NCBI GenBank assembly: GCA_026390575.1
Contig: JAPLFR010000009.1
Span: 1-64,000 of the forward strand
Length of the DNA stretch: 64,000 nt
Reading direction: 5' to 3'
Source of the DNA: Ignavibacteriales bacterium
GTDB taxonomy: Bacteria; Bacteroidota; Ignavibacteria; UBA10030
Positions 17,227-23,561 of the stretch are shown piece by piece (the first letter of the stretch is position 1; each line of letters opens with the position of its first letter). A program made the position numbers and the translations under genes. The notes beneath the pieces are model-generated. The model ran no database searches. It saw only the letters and a list, made by a program, of their open reading frames with translations, and had not been told where the DNA came from.

Positions 17227-17514
17227 CCATTCTCAAAATCTATAACAATCCTCCTCTTTAGACATAAATTCGCTCATCCCTGGTATGTTGCTGATTCTGA
17301 TTCAAGAGTCATTGGTTATGTGTATGCATCGGAATTTGTTGAAAGGTTGGCATATACATTTACAAGCGAAGTGACAATTTTTAATGTTTGGCATGCATGC
17401 GGGTACAAACCTGCTCGAATATTCCGTTCTCTCCATGAAGTTTGTAATTCTCAAGTCACTTTTGTAGATTACAACCAGTTCTCCTATAATCTGCGCACGG
17501 GGAGTAGCGTGTGA
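17227..17514 (+). pseudogene. Decayed phosphinothricin-acetyltransferase-like GNAT
   Basis: A frame open from 17227 to TGA at 17512-17514 contains HPWYVADSDSRVIGYVYAS...YTFTSEVTIF and then jumps to WHACGYKPARIFRSLHEV. In intact bar/pat-type GNAT proteins these blocks are 'HPWLVAE...VAGYAYAS...YRWTVEVSVY' and 'LHEALGF...GTFREVG', separated by about 45 residues that hold the acetyl-CoA loop (R/Q-x-x-G-x-G). That middle part and the N-terminus are missing here, so the enzyme cannot be functional. GNATs are common integron cargo, and this remnant lies just before the cassette array. Confidence 0.5.
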
Positions 17515-17649
17515 AGATTTGCCGTCGTAAGAATTTTCCAAATATAAATGACATGAATGAACTGAAAGGTGGAATCTATGTTTTCTGTTTATCCCGAAGG
17601 GATTGATTCCCATAAGCGCAAAAGATAGACAAAGTCTATCTAATCAGTA

Positions 17650-17656
17650 GTTAGGC
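17650..17656 (+). other. Core recombination site (GTTAGGC) opening the cassette array
   Basis: GTTAGGC matches the R' consensus GTTRRRY. The bases after the first G (TTAGGCGGCAT) are the exact reverse complement of the sequence that begins the attC-like site ending this cassette (ATGCCGCCTAA at 18228-18238). The left half of the attC this R' belonged to is not recognisable. Confidence 0.55.
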
Positions 17657-17700
17657 GGCATTTTATTAATCATTTTAATCTATCACCACAAGAGGTTATC

Positions 17701-18216
17701 ATGAAATTCAAAATCATTATTTCTCAATTATTCTTTGTGCTCGCTGTTATAATTGCTTCGGGATGTTCGCGCAGTAGTGATGATTTTCTCCAAGCTGGCC
17801 GGACTAATGTGATAGACCACAAATACGATCAAGCGCTTAGCAATTTCAATTATGCGATTGAGCTTGATTCTAACAATGCTCAGGCACACCTTGAAAGAGC
17901 CCTTATAGCTAACAAAACATCCAATCCGGTGCCCCTGGAGGCAGATTTATCAAAGTACATAGAATTGACTGCGAAGTCTCTGGCGATTGCACACATAGGC
18001 AGAGCGTTGGACCGAATGTTGCACCGAACTGATCCTAACGCATCATTGGCAGATCTTAACAATGCCATTGCAATTGATCCATCAAACATTCAAGGTTACC
18101 ATTTCAAGAGAGAACTGTTAAGCCAACAAGGTGACACGGTTCAATTGAAGGAGTTTCTTAACAGCATAGATGACTCGACGCGGTTAAAACTCTTTCAGAA
18201 AGAAAAAATCTTTTAG
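17701..18216 (+). CDS. TPR lipoprotein (cassette 1 cargo)
   Basis: The 171-residue protein has a lipoprotein signal ending IASGC. It then has two to three tetratricopeptide-like repeats (AGRTNVIDHKYDQALSNF, AIELDSNNAQAHLERA, ADLNNAIAIDPSNIQGYHF), which bind protein partners. It would sit in the inner or outer membrane facing the periplasm. It is the only gene of the first cassette and starts 44 bases after the GTTAGGC site, close enough for cassette transcription from outside. No specific function can be given. Confidence 0.8.
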   Translation: MKFKIIISQLFFVLAVIIASGCSRSSDDFLQAGRTNVIDHKYDQALSNFNYAIELDSNNAQAHLERALIANKTSNPVPLEADLSKYIELTAKSLAIAHIGRALDRMLHRTDPNASLADLNNAIAIDPSNIQGYHFKRELLSQQGDTVQLKEFLNSIDDSTRLKLFQKEKIF

Positions 18217-18232
18217 AATGGAAATACATGCC

Positions 18233-18464
18233 GCCTAACCAGCGGCTCAAGCTGACCGGATGAGCGTCGCCCGCCGTTAGTTATAGGAAATTGGTCGGCG
18301 GGCTAGTACGTTAAGCATTGCGAGTGGTGGGTTTATGTTTTTATTATTAACATTTTAGTACCTCGTTGGTTGAGTAAATTATATTTGGTCATCAGCATGA
18401 ACTCTTTTCGTTTTGTGGTTAATTAAAGTTGGTCACGCGGCAGCTTAGCCGCAATCCGTTATAC
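18233..18464 (+). other. attC-like recombination site 1
   Basis: R'' is GCCTAAC at 18233-18239 and R' is GTTATAC at 18458-18464. The inner arms GCGGCTCAAGCTGACC (18242-18257) and GGTCA...GCTTAGCCGC (18431-18452) are complementary apart from one extra C on the left arm, the hallmark extrahelical base. At 232 bases it is longer than classical attC sites. It also holds an internal hairpin (CGCCCGCCG with CGGCGGGC, about 18268-18302). Confidence 0.65.
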
Positions 18465-18546
18465 CGCTTGCGCTTTTAGAAGTTGGTGGTAAAAATTATA
18501 TATACAAATTCAAAATAATGTTAATAAAAGCTAAAAAGGTAATTTT

Positions 18547-19587
18547 ATGAAAAAACCATTAATAATAAATCTATTGACTTTTGTTTTCTATTTGACAATT
18601 CACGCACAGGCAGTTTATGTTGATTGTAATATAGGAAATGATAATAACACGGGTACTGAAAAGACTCCGGTTTATTCTATAAATAAAGCTATGGCAATAA
18701 TTAACAGCATGGATAATGATATCTATATTATGAAAATAAATCCGGGCATCTATGTCTTAGATAAACATATAGAAGTTGCTACAAAAAAACCAATGACTAA
18801 TAAGAGGATAGTAATTGAAGCAAACATTCTTCCTGACGTTTCAACATGGACACCTGATAAAATGCCGGTGATCATAAGTAAATCCAAAACAGGAGAGATA
18901 ATGTCAGATGATGCTTTTCTGCAAGATATTTGGATTACCAGTTTTTATGTTAATGAAAGTCATGTTACGATAAGGGGATTAAAATTTCTTGGTTATAGTT
19001 ACAATAAATTCTTTTATCCGATTACCCGGTTTAATAAAGCAAAAACAGATCTGGTAGTTGAGCAATGTATGTTTTTAGGTAATTTACAAATTTCTGTAAT
19101 TCAGGCAAGTATTATTGCACATGGAGATTCAGTTAAAGTTGATCACTGTATCTTTTATAACGCAAATAATTCAGTTGTATATTGGCACGATTCAGGAAAT
19201 GGTATTAAAACCGGGAATAGTATGACAAACTGTATAATATATGGTGCAACTGGAAGCGCTATTTTCACATATTCTCAAGATAAAGATTTTATTTTTAAGA
19301 ATAATATAGCTTCAAATTGTAAGATTTTTTGGTCTAAAGGCATAAATAATTCATTTGTATACTCATTAGATAGTTGTGTAGTAGTAAACAATCAAATATA
19401 TACGTCAGACGGAGAAAATCCGGTAACATTTCCGATGAATGAGAATAATGTTATTAAAGAAGGTAATATATCACTCAGGTTGATCAATAAGATATGGGAA
19501 CCGTTGCCAATTGATCATTTGCATATTATTCCAAATACACTTGGATACAATTTTGGGGCTGGGTTATTTAAACAAAGAAAACAATAA
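18547..19587 (+). CDS. Exported right-handed beta-helix-like protein (cassette 2 cargo)
   Basis: The 346-residue protein has a signal peptide (ending TIHAQ) and opens with VYVDCNIGNDNNTGTEKTPVYSINKA. That is the start seen in DUF1565/pectate-lyase-like beta-helix proteins (YVD..GND.NTGT...P..SI..A). The body repeats short strands ending in asparagine or cysteine (MTNCIIYGA, FKNNIASN, VDHCIFYN), consistent with stacked coils. No catalytic residues were identified. It is much richer in A and T than the flanking genes, which fits recent acquisition as a cassette. Confidence 0.75.
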   Translation: MKKPLIINLLTFVFYLTIHAQAVYVDCNIGNDNNTGTEKTPVYSINKAMAIINSMDNDIYIMKINPGIYVLDKHIEVATKKPMTNKRIVIEANILPDVSTWTPDKMPVIISKSKTGEIMSDDAFLQDIWITSFYVNESHVTIRGLKFLGYSYNKFFYPITRFNKAKTDLVVEQCMFLGNLQISVIQASIIAHGDSVKVDHCIFYNANNSVVYWHDSGNGIKTGNSMTNCIIYGATGSAIFTYSQDKDFIFKNNIASNCKIFWSKGINNSFVYSLDSCVVVNNQIYTSDGENPVTFPMNENNVIKEGNISLRLINKIWEPLPIDHLHIIPNTLGYNFGAGLFKQRKQ

Positions 19588-19668
19588 AATTCTAGTGCCA
19601 ATAATACAGTTCACACGCAATGTAGGATAAGGTGGCAGTCAACTAATAGTTAAAAGTAAATGCAAGCG

Positions 19669-19996
19669 GTATAACCAGCGGCTCAAGCTGACCCCGACTT
19701 CGTCGGGGCAAGCGGAATGAGGGTGAGTACTTTACGCATGGCTGGTAGAGGTTTTGTGTTTAATTGAAAGTGAAGTGAATGAACTTGGTTCGTTTTGTAT
19801 ATTTTGTGCGCCAAAGGCGCATGCGCCTCTGGCGCAAAAGTCATCACCTGCCTGCCGGCTTGTCCGCTGAAACGAAGTGCAAGCGGAAGTGCCTACGGCA
19901 CGCAGGTAGGGTGCCGCAGTCCGATCCCGCCAAGCGGGATCGCGATCGCGTCCCGATATGTAATATCGGGTCGGACTTAGCCGCCATCCGTTAGGC
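19669..19996 (+). other. attC-like recombination site 2, enlarged by hairpins
   Basis: R'' is GTATAAC (19669-19675) and R' is GTTAGGC (19990-19996). The left arm GCGGCTCAAGCTGACC at 19678-19693 is identical to that of site 1, and the right arm is CTTAGCCGCC at 19977-19986. The 14 bases before and including R'' mirror the cassette start at 18458. Between the arms lie several further hairpins (CCCCGACTTCGTCGGGG; GCGCCAAAGGCGC/GCGCCTCTGGCGC; GATCCCGCCAAGCGGGATC; CCCGATAT/ATATCGGG), making the site about 330 bases long. Confidence 0.65.
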
Positions 19997-20068
19997 GGTT
20001 GCAGGAAATATTGATTGGCTGTCATAATACAGAAATCATCGAATTTAATCTAACATAGGTAGCATAAC

Positions 20069-21199
20069 ATGAGTCAAAAGGTAATTGTTTTTCTTATAGC
20101 TATTATTATTTCTTTTCGACTAATCGCACAAGACTCTATTAAATTTGTTCTGGCTCAAACCATTCCTAATACTGCAGGTAATGATATTGTTTTAGTGGAT
20201 TTCAATAATGATGGAAATGTCGACGTGTTTATCGCCAACGGGAAATCGAATAAGCCCTTACCATCCAAATTATGGATCAATGATGGAACCGGTCATTATG
20301 CTGATTCGAAACAGGATTTTGGAGAAGCAAAATCATGGAGTGTGGCATACGGAGATGTTACTGGAAGCGGATTTATTGACTTGTTTATTGCCAACGGCGA
20401 TTGGAACAATGGGGATTCAAGCCGTCTATGGATCAATAATGGTTATGGCCAATTTACTTGTTCTGCAAACAAATTTGGCAAAGCCAATAGTAGCTGCGCT
20501 GTTTTGGGAGATTTGAATGGCGATGGAGCTCTGGATATTTTTTTTGCAAATCATCCTTATAGTAACGGTAAGGGTGGTGAAGATGAAGTATGGTTTAATG
20601 ACGGGAAAGGTAACTTTACCAATAGCGGTCAAAAGTTAGGCAGATCGGATGCTGCAAGACGTGTAAAGTTAGCAGATGTGAATGGCGATAGTTTCTTAGA
20701 TGCTATCGTTCTCAACGGCGATACAAATAGAATATGGCTTAATAACGGAAGAGGTCATTTTTTAGAGAGCAGACAAAACATTGGTGTTGGAGAGAATATT
20801 GATTTAGCAGTTTGTGATATTGATAATGATGGAGATAAGGACATTATTATTGTAAAAGGAGCTTGGGGTAAGAAACCGAAAGGTAACGAAGTATGGATAA
20901 ACGACGGAAAAGGTAATTTCTCCAAATCACAAAGTATTGGCGACTATGACGGTTATGGTGTTGCAGTCGGTGATTTTAACAAGGATCAATACCTTGATCT
21001 CGTTGTGGTAAATGGTCCAAACCAACCAAATCAGATTTTTCTGAACGATAAAGGCGGACATTTCTACAATTCCAAAATAGACATCGGCAGCGGAGGAAAT
21101 AAAGTTGCTGTTAGTAATTTAAATCATGATAATCTTTTAGACTTAATAATTGTAGGAGATGAAAATACTAAAGTATATTTACAAATCAATAATAAATAG
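20069..21199 (+). CDS. Exported FG-GAP/VCBS-repeat beta-propeller protein (cassette 3 cargo)
   Basis: The 376-residue protein has a signal peptide (ending RLIAQ) and about seven FG-GAP/VCBS blades. Each carries a calcium-loop motif of the DxNxDGxxD type: DFNNDGNVDVF, DLNGDGALDIF, DVNGDSFLDAI, DIDNDGDKDII, DFNKDQYLDLV. They alternate with LWINDGTGHY or FNDGKGNF units. This is a secreted or surface beta-propeller for binding proteins or carbohydrates, without an enzyme domain. It fills cassette 3 between the site at 19990 and the one at 21203. Confidence 0.9.
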   Translation: MSQKVIVFLIAIIISFRLIAQDSIKFVLAQTIPNTAGNDIVLVDFNNDGNVDVFIANGKSNKPLPSKLWINDGTGHYADSKQDFGEAKSWSVAYGDVTGSGFIDLFIANGDWNNGDSSRLWINNGYGQFTCSANKFGKANSSCAVLGDLNGDGALDIFFANHPYSNGKGGEDEVWFNDGKGNFTNSGQKLGRSDAARRVKLADVNGDSFLDAIVLNGDTNRIWLNNGRGHFLESRQNIGVGENIDLAVCDIDNDGDKDIIIVKGAWGKKPKGNEVWINDGKGNFSKSQSIGDYDGYGVAVGDFNKDQYLDLVVVNGPNQPNQIFLNDKGGHFYNSKIDIGSGGNKVAVSNLNHDNLLDLIIVGDENTKVYLQINNK

Positions 21200-21202
21200 G
21201 CA

Positions 21203-21440
21203 ACCGCCTAACCAGGCATTCCCAGCAAAAAGAGCGCGGGATTTCTAAAATGCGCTCACTGACAGCCGGAGGCCTGAGAATGATTCACGCGAAGCGTGAA
21301 ACAACTTCTTATATAGAGATACAATATTTATCAATCAGGCTCACTGCAAAATTCATGCCTGTCCGCCGCACGCTAGCAGAAGGCGGGCACGAAGGCAGGG
21401 TGCCGCATTCCGATTTATCGAGAGCCCATCGGTTTGGTCG
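21203..21440 (+). other. attC-like recombination site 3, right half degraded
   Basis: R'' is GCCTAAC at 21203-21209. The 13 bases GCAACCGCCTAAC (21197-21209) are the perfect reverse complement of the cassette start at 19990-20002. No matching GTTRRRY is found on the right. The site ends in sequence resembling the interior of site 2 (GGCAGGGTGCCGCATTCCGAT at 21393-21413 against GGTAGGGTGCCGCAGTCCGAT), then fades near CATATTAGAAC. It also contains the AGCCGGAGGCCTGAGA module (21264-21279). Confidence 0.5.
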
Positions 21441-22163: not shown

Positions 22164-22286
22164 ATCTAACTTTGTTCACGTGTCGCCATATCCAAGCGCT
22201 CCCCGTTCACCTTTGTTGCGGTCTCGTTCTGAGAAAGCCATTATGTTCACAGCGAGATTATAGTATGAGCCCGTCGGCTGTTAGGC
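22164..22286 (+). other. Possible attC-like recombination site 4
   Basis: R''-like ATCTAAC (22164-22170) and R'-like GTTAGGC (22280-22286) are 123 bases apart, a normal attC length. However, the inner arms pair poorly, and no start matching this R'' was found for cassette 4. The right core (CTGTTAGGCGGTTGATAAC) resembles the cassette 3 start, which supports it as a genuine insertion point. Confidence 0.4.
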
Positions 22287-22315: not shown

Positions 22316-23098
22316 TTGCAGAAGACATCTCAGCCATACTCAATTCATACATATTGTTATGGATCGCAGGATAGCCAAGAGGGCGATTTGTACTTACCCC
22401 AAGTATCGCGACCTCCAGTTCTGTGCCTGATTCACGGTGGTTTTTGGAGGATGCCGTACGGACGCGATGAGTTCTCTGCCATAGCGAAAGACCTTGCAGC
22501 CCGGGGATATGCGGTATGGAATATTGAATATCAAAGATCGGGCGCCCCCGGAGGCGGTTGGCCTGGTACTCTTCACGACATTGCATCAGCGATAGATCAC
22601 CTTGCAACACTTGTGACTGATGGGATCGAACTTGATTTGAACCGTGTTATCGTTGCTGGCCATTCTGCAGGTGGTCACCTCGCATTATGGGTCGCAGCAC
22701 GAAATAAACCTTCAAATATCCCATCATTGGTTCGCGTCCAGCCTATTGCTGCAGTTGGTCTGGCAGCGATTACCGATCTTGCACGCACGTTCGAGCTCAA
22801 CGCAGGAAAAGGTGCAGTCAATGAATTTCTAGGCGGATCGCCTCGTCAGTATCCAGATCGCTATGCCGCCGCGTCTCCAATTGAATTGCTGCCCCTTGGT
22901 GTAAGACAGCTGATCATTCACGGCGTTAAAGACGAAGCACTGCCAATTGACCTATCCCGAAGTTACGCTGCTGCTGCGCAAGCGTTCGGTGACTGTGTCG
23001 AGTTTGTTGAGTTGCCTGATGCAGGACACATGGATTTTTTAGATCCAAGCAGCAAGGCGCATTTGGTCCTTTGCGAATGGCTTGCCGCTCAAGTCTAA
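22316..23098 (+). CDS. Alpha/beta hydrolase (cassette 5 cargo)
   Basis: The 260-residue enzyme has the oxyanion-hole motif HGG (residues 40-42, in LIHGGFWR), the nucleophile Ser117 in GHSAGG, an acid in GVKDEALP (near 207) and a catalytic His in DAGHMDF. HGGFWR with EYQRSG...GGGWPGTL marks the BD-FAE/kynurenine-formamidase-like esterase group. There is no signal peptide, so it is cytoplasmic, unlike the other cassette proteins. The likely start is TTG at 22316, only 30 bases after the GTTAGGC site. It probably hydrolyses a small ester or amide, and the substrate is unknown. Confidence 0.88.
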   Translation: MQKTSQPYSIHTYCYGSQDSQEGDLYLPQVSRPPVLCLIHGGFWRMPYGRDEFSAIAKDLAARGYAVWNIEYQRSGAPGGGWPGTLHDIASAIDHLATLVTDGIELDLNRVIVAGHSAGGHLALWVAARNKPSNIPSLVRVQPIAAVGLAAITDLARTFELNAGKGAVNEFLGGSPRQYPDRYAAASPIELLPLGVRQLIIHGVKDEALPIDLSRSYAAAAQAFGDCVEFVELPDAGHMDFLDPSSKAHLVLCEWLAAQV

Positions 23099-23221: not shown

Positions 23222-23230
23222 TTGACCAAA

Positions 23231-23351
23231 AAGTCCGGAGTTGTCATGCTGAACTCGTTTCAGCATCTGTTTTTGTAAAAAATTAGACCCCGAAACACTT
23301 GCCTGCGTGCCGATGCACTTCGGCAGGCAGGAGTTCGGGGTGACATTTTCT
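23231..23351. repeat. Dispersed hairpin repeat
   Basis: GTTGTCATGCTGAACTCG and, about 100 bases later, GAGTTCGGGGTGACATT bracket a long hairpin region (CCCCGAAAC...; CTGCCTGCGTGCCGATGCA/TGCACTTCGGCAGGCAG). It belongs to the 'GTCAT...ATGAC' family of genomic hairpin repeats also seen in the two MITE-like elements. The rest of the 23099-23561 gap contains no gene that I can support. Confidence 0.5.
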
Positions 23352-23561
23352 TTCTTTTTGGTCAGCCACGGACAAAGCGGGATTTCGCAAGCTCAACAAG
23401 TATATAAATTACTCACGAGGTAGTATGCAGTTTATGATGCTGTCAATGCCCTTTTGTGCTAGATGTGCATCCGTAATTCTTTTTCTTTCTTGATTCTGCT
23501 TTAAAAGCTGAGTACACTAATTTTAATTTTCCTTATCTAAAAGAATATGTAAATTCTTATC

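Follow-up and report, generated by a model that had tools for sequence, protein, structure and literature searches.

The attC sites of published integrons are 57–141 nt long, those of sedentary integrons mostly 120–129 nt (PMC5371416). In Vibrio cholerae, low pfold was accompanied by low or undetected excision, with none detected for cassettes lying between two low-pfold sites (PMC5371416), and replacement of a 65-nt terminal structure changed integration little in a conjugation assay (PMC2727003). Complete integrons have previously been reported in Ignavibacteriae (PMC9024848). The window considered here (the whole 64,000-nt stretch of DNA that was analyzed) carries two attC sites, of 232 and 328 nt, lengths that agree with those given in a preliminary description made from the sequence alone.

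Sites 1 and 2 are real attC sites flanking genuine cassettes, in an outpost without an integrase (Table 1). Their L boxes are intact (GCGGCT C AAG / CTT AGCCGC, with the extrahelical base), and their R boxes fit RYYYAAC / GTTRRRY, each site departing from the consensus by one core base. The ends of cassette 2, GTTATACCGCTTGC (18458) and GCAAGCGGTATAAC (19662), are complementary at 14/14 positions, and those of cassette 3, GTTAGGCGGTTGC (19990) and GCAACCGCCTAAC (21200), are complementary by reading of the sequence. No Pfam family was matched by the 346-aa protein of cassette 2. For the decayed site 3, neither attC scanner detected a right-end partner; its right part is similar to GTGCCGCATCCCGATATATCGGGAGCC of the related genome G004. 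Ahead of cassette 1, positions 17410–17655 are 77–82% conserved in G004 (C3 and C43) and end in a GTTAGGC core, possibly another attC of a different build. At 23223–23364 the window also holds one of the many copies of a repeat, about 150 nt long (TTTGACCAAAAAGTCCGGAGTTGTCATGCTGAACTC...), that is dispersed through the genome; the copy at C16:226.8 kb contains module E.

Table 1. Features of the window in and around the attC sites (positions are those of contig C9)
Feature	Position	Strand	Remarks
Window	C9:1-64000		part of a 3.82-Mb genome (G000) in 16 contigs
Cassette 1	17650..18239	+	ends GTTAGGCGGC...GCCGCCTAAC, complementary by reading of the sequence
ORF of cassette 1 (TPR protein)	17701-18216	+	Pfam TPR_11
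attC site 1	18233..18464	+	232 nt, GCCTAAC...GTTATAC
Hairpin module B, site 1	18270..18305	+	36 nt, CCCGCCG...CGGCGGG, z -3.9; inserted at base position 37
Block C, apical loop of site 1	18345..18391	+	non-hairpin, z about 0; boundaries approximate
Cassette 2	18458..19675	+	346-aa ORF 18547-19587
attC site 2	19669..19996	+	328 nt, GTATAAC...GTTAGGC
L'' box GCGGCT and C opposite extrahelical G, site 2	19678..19684	+	complements 19979-19984, AGCCGC
Hairpin module A, site 2	19692..19708	+	CCCCGACTTCGTCGGGG
Hairpin module F, site 2	19807..19836	+	TGCGCCAAAGGCGCATGCGCCTCTGGCGCA, z -5.4
Hairpin module E, site 2	19847..19910	+	z -2.4; nested E2 at 19858-19888
Hairpin module D, site 2	19920..19975	+	TCCG-hairpin-GCGATCGC-hairpin-CGGA at GCAG^CTTAG, z -6.2
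Cassette 3	19990..21212	+	FG-GAP repeat ORF 20069-21199
Site 3, decayed attC, right end lost	21206..21436	+	left core GCCTAAC; right boundary approximate
Lone GTTAGGC core	22280..22286	+	precedes abhydrolase ORF 22316-23098
Tail of A-type insert	23379..23400	+	GGGATTTCGCAAGCTCAACAAG; likely remnant of another attC

The sole full IntI of the genome is encoded on another contig (C7:21893-22834). It matches TIGR02249 with 442 bits in a profile search, carries the Pfam domains Phage_integrase and SAM-like domain, and its translation visibly contains the tyrosine-recombinase motifs and the extra segment typical of IntI. The sites of the window (C9:18–20 kb) have no IntI adjacent to them and are thus a CALIN (at least two attC sites with no adjoining intI). 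Two remnants of IntI also lie near attC arrays, one with a single stop (C15:5084-5314), the other consisting of the N-terminal part only (C8:65686-65883); with two decayed copies besides the intact one, the genome seems once to have held three integrons. Contig ends fall at or near attC sites on C1, C7, C15, and C16, as is expected of an assembly broken at repeats. When this genome and its relatives (80 genomes in all) were searched, a covariance model of the 158-nt class of attC (see below) found matches in 39 and IntI exceeded the cut-off in 20.

What is an ordinary attC size in this lineage? A strict scanner, demanding paired L boxes with an extra base, was run over about 384 kb of this genome and found 46 sites, sites 1 and 2 among them, as compared with 1 in the reversed control. 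A looser catalogue holds about 64 sites, 30/64 of them in the 150–159 nt bin and 13/64 in the 190–199 nt bin, and the lengths of 61 sites collected from relatives peak in the same two places. What sets the 196-nt class apart from the 158-nt class is mostly a block of the terminal loop that forms no hairpin. RNAalifold recovered only the R/L stem (19 pairs) for the 158-nt class, and no conserved terminal fold. Sites of this lineage thus run somewhat long as a rule (about 158 nt, with a second class at about 196 nt) but not as long as 232–328 nt, so the enlarged sites are exceptions. The longest reach 378 nt in this genome and 414 nt in one relative.

Nested hairpins had been proposed to account for the enlargement of both sites. 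They do so for site 2: aligned with a 158-nt site, its excess consists mainly of four hairpins (A, F, E, and D) lying, as had been described, between intact outer arms. Site 1 is built otherwise, containing one hairpin (B) and a non-hairpin enlargement of its terminal loop (block C), the same block that gives the 196-nt class of this genus its extra length.

Two of the cassettes can be compared with copies that have shorter sites. A copy of the TPR cassette, 93% identical to it, lies in the array next to IntI (C7:3304-3914); the attC site of this copy (C7:3183-3338) has a length of 156 nt, lacks both B and block C, and has the L box GCGCAT in place of the GCGGCT of site 1. A second copy (78%, C1:8633-9192) has a site of 158 nt. 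Orthologues of the FG-GAP cassette are found in G005 (91%) and G004 (84%). The site in G004 is 195 nt and free of hairpins, and that in G005 is 211 nt with a hairpin at position 15 (see below); immediately upstream of the latter is a site of 332 nt with hairpins at both of the hot spots described below. Near the FG-GAP cassette of G004 (C11), another cassette encodes a product (YDAFISHASEDK) that looks TIR-domain-like by eye. Homologues of the 346-aa protein were considered as comparisons for site 2 and set aside: the one in G003 (68%) has neighbors that look like ordinary chromosomal genes, and the one in G002 (69%) sits among a different type of repeat. In G002 (C219), the repeat lying between cassette-like units is of another kind (CCTGAGTAACAAACTCAGG...AATATAGAAATCGTTAGGCGGC) and may be a further attC-like type.

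The preliminary description had allowed either that hairpin repeats inserted into recombination sites or that the lineage uses very long folded sites. The first is supported by the size norm of about 158 and 196 nt, by shorter sites at copies of these cassettes, and by the dispersed occurrence of E and F; the second, taken as a rule, is not supported. Short sites at the same cassettes, with hairpins found elsewhere, had been named as the contrary evidence to look for, and this pattern was largely found; it weighs against very long sites. That alternative retains some force nonetheless, because A and D turned up only in attC or its remnants, base-exactly and in several species, and because relatives have sites of 250–414 nt.

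The modules differ in where they occur. Exact or one-mismatch matches to the D core pattern in this genome all lie in right halves of attC, at about 20 sites. The full D pattern was matched by one record among 84,980 species genomes, a single copy in the same-genus relative fen_1299 (G001), and of 60 relatives this genome alone matched it. The tail pattern of the commonest left hairpin at position 15 gave 13 matches, and all places checked were attC sites or remnants of cassette arrays. By contrast, F-like repeats are found at about 8 places outside attC, and E2 has nine copies genome-wide, of which at least two (C9:101769 and C16:226867) are remote from any attC and one (C3:83171) lies within an attC-like remnant. 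No match to the D or E2 pattern was found in viral contigs.

Two points within the sites carry hairpins with single-base precision. Left hairpins are found at GCT^CAAG (position 15) in this genome, G001, G003, and G005; this is their place in most sites other than site 2, whose module A lies at 19692–19708. The hairpins at position 15 are clearly unlike one another (CCCCGC...GCGGGG, TCCCGAAGGGATCCCTTTGGGA, CTCCAAAGGAGTCCTTCGGA, CCCCTCT...AGAGGGG, and others). On the right, at GCAG^CTTAG (position -21), D is found in this genome and in G001; a different element, of 45 nt and two hairpins, is shared by G001 and G005, and G003 has a third. In the folded bottom strand the extrahelical base and its three adjoining pairs lie between the two hot spots. 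That unlike hairpins should recur base-exactly beside the extrahelical base is unexpected and calls for an enzyme. Their presence at the same points may reflect repeated insertion, or perhaps a single insertion followed by turnover of sequence. The D stems are changed on both sides in 6/24 pairs, mostly through swaps of whole hairpins, and a 334-nt site of fen_1299 has a left hairpin together with F and D, as site 2 does. In D-bearing sites of this genome, the left and right halves often differ in the family of their L box (GCGGCT or GGCGCT), as if halves had been exchanged at D.

How the inserts might affect recombination was approached by folding the bottom strand under a constraint on the R and L boxes modelled on PMC5371416, with one energy model. 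In the minimum free energy structure of site 1, the L boxes pair with each other and leave the extrahelical base unpaired, and pfold is 0.33. In that of site 2 they do not pair, and pfold is 0.00095 despite matched boxes. The whole bottom strand of site 2 folds far better than shuffled versions (z -6.5; 0/100). Removing D in silico brings its pfold to 0.055, removing all four hairpins to 0.108. On this model, cassettes 2 and 3 are predicted to be nearly immobile, and site 1 could still work.

The same tendency is seen when sites carrying A or D are taken together. They are absent from the IntI array (0/23) and make up 17/41 of the sites elsewhere (Fisher p 2e-4); 11/17 have mismatched L boxes as against 8/47 of the others (p 5e-4); and their median pfold is 1.6e-4 as against 0.55 (p 7e-4), p-values that are all optimistic because many sites are related by descent and their independence is thus overstated. 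Several of them (e.g., C8:68953 and C8:72818) are truncated. Six have matched L boxes, and pfold is 0.39–0.87 for five of these. The A and D hairpins therefore, as far as folding models can tell, probably lower the excision of cassettes. The notion that sites tolerate hairpins owing to the folding of each hairpin on itself found no support by this measure: over 26 base sites, median pfold was 0.33–0.34 with real A or D inserts, 0.34–0.35 with shuffled inserts, and 0.51 with no insert. Since shuffled inserts did no worse than real ones, the nature of the inserting elements accounts for the hairpin form better than any requirement of the site does.

We think it likely that sites 1 and 2 derive from 158-nt attC sites of a lineage-specific chromosomal integron that gained palindromes stepwise, and that their cassettes are rarely excised. 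Site 1 would have gained one short palindrome, B, and site 2 four: A, F, D, and E, the last with a further hairpin nested in it. As dispersed repeats, E and F would have entered the variable terminal part or its vicinity, and D and the commonest hairpin of position 15 would have docked at exact points adjoining the conserved extrahelical base, the accumulation taking place mostly in sites away from the integrase. The outer R and L arms were kept, so a recombinogenic fold is still possible, but the L arms of many sites of this kind have drifted or become chimeric, and long self-folding inserts may compete with that fold. A cassette that is seldom excised would be the likely outcome. The commonness of short sites gives the process its direction, suggesting that elements were gained rather than lost from long ancestors, and we infer that they moved as mobile palindromes.

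One might instead regard the sites with A or D as a maintained, functional subfamily, with side hairpins serving in strand choice, in binding a host protein, or in damping excision. The confinement of A and D to attC at base-exact positions would make sense on such terms, as would the A-F-D layout in fen_1299 that resembles that of site 2, the retention of D as a fold through changes on both sides of its stems, and the five sites with matched boxes and ample pfold. The paired changes in D, however, are mostly swaps of whole hairpins, and a maintained subfamily is hard to reconcile with its absence from the array of the intact IntI, the frequent mismatches in its L boxes, and the truncation of several members; we consider it unlikely. 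Less likely still is that the hairpins are, for the most part, transcription terminators or general intergenic palindromes, attC being merely the intergenic DNA of the arrays. Copies of F and E outside attC (one beside a tRNA gene, one inside a dispersed repeat) are what this would predict, but base-exact positions within the L box are not, nor is the absence of D and of the A tail from ordinary intergenic DNA.

An origin of D and A as remnants or miniature derivatives of an IS1111-attC insertion sequence or a group IIC-attC intron has the attraction that such elements target folded attC at a fixed point (PMC11187229, PMC7923331). The inserts considered here are 20–94 nt, with neither transposase nor intron, and group IIC-attC introns insert at TTGT/T in R'' rather than in the L box, so this origin is very improbable. 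A narrower form of the stepwise gain that we favor would have a family of miniature palindromes specific to attC inserted base-exactly into folded single-stranded sites, at the two points beside the extrahelical base, by IntI or by a single-strand (Y1/HUH) transposase, shutting cassettes down. We put it forward tentatively, as a doubtful proposition. The genome has 13 matches to Y1_Tnp (PF01797, IS200-like), one of them about 1 kb from intI, but these proteins are at most candidates for moving the palindromes. A Y1_Tnp gene adjoining intI (L001 2869-3399) is flanked by repeated palindromes (GTCCAACTGCGAGCTGGACTC).

The occurrence of matched short and long sites at the same cassette in one genome makes the control of excision by side hairpins and by the length of the terminal structure directly testable. 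It also bears on surveys: attC finders have by default an upper size limit of about 200 nt, so sites of 200–414 nt could be missed and the cassette arrays of this clade undercounted. Searches of the literature by text turned up no publication that deals with palindromic elements within attC, in a coverage that takes in few subscription journals.

The stepwise enlargement that we favor shares features with several known systems. Like the attC sites of sedentary chromosomal integrons (e.g., the VCR of Vibrio cholerae), those described here have R and L boxes, an extrahelical base, a lineage-specific sequence, a long and variable terminal structure, and complementary cassette ends; unlike them, they have norms of 158 and 196 nt rather than about 120–129 nt, and extra hairpins docked in the L box. 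The cassettes of the window lack an adjoining IntI, as in CALINs, which have been proposed to be degraded integrons (PMC9024848), but enlarged sites bearing hairpins fall outside that description. Insertion into attC is site-specific, as with IS1111-attC elements and group IIC-attC introns, yet what is inserted here are hairpins of 20–94 nt without genes, and the intron enters at another point of the site. Finally, short dispersed palindromes in a genome with Y1_Tnp genes recall REP and BIME elements and their Y1 transposases (TnpA-REP, RAYT), from which D and A differ in being confined to attC.
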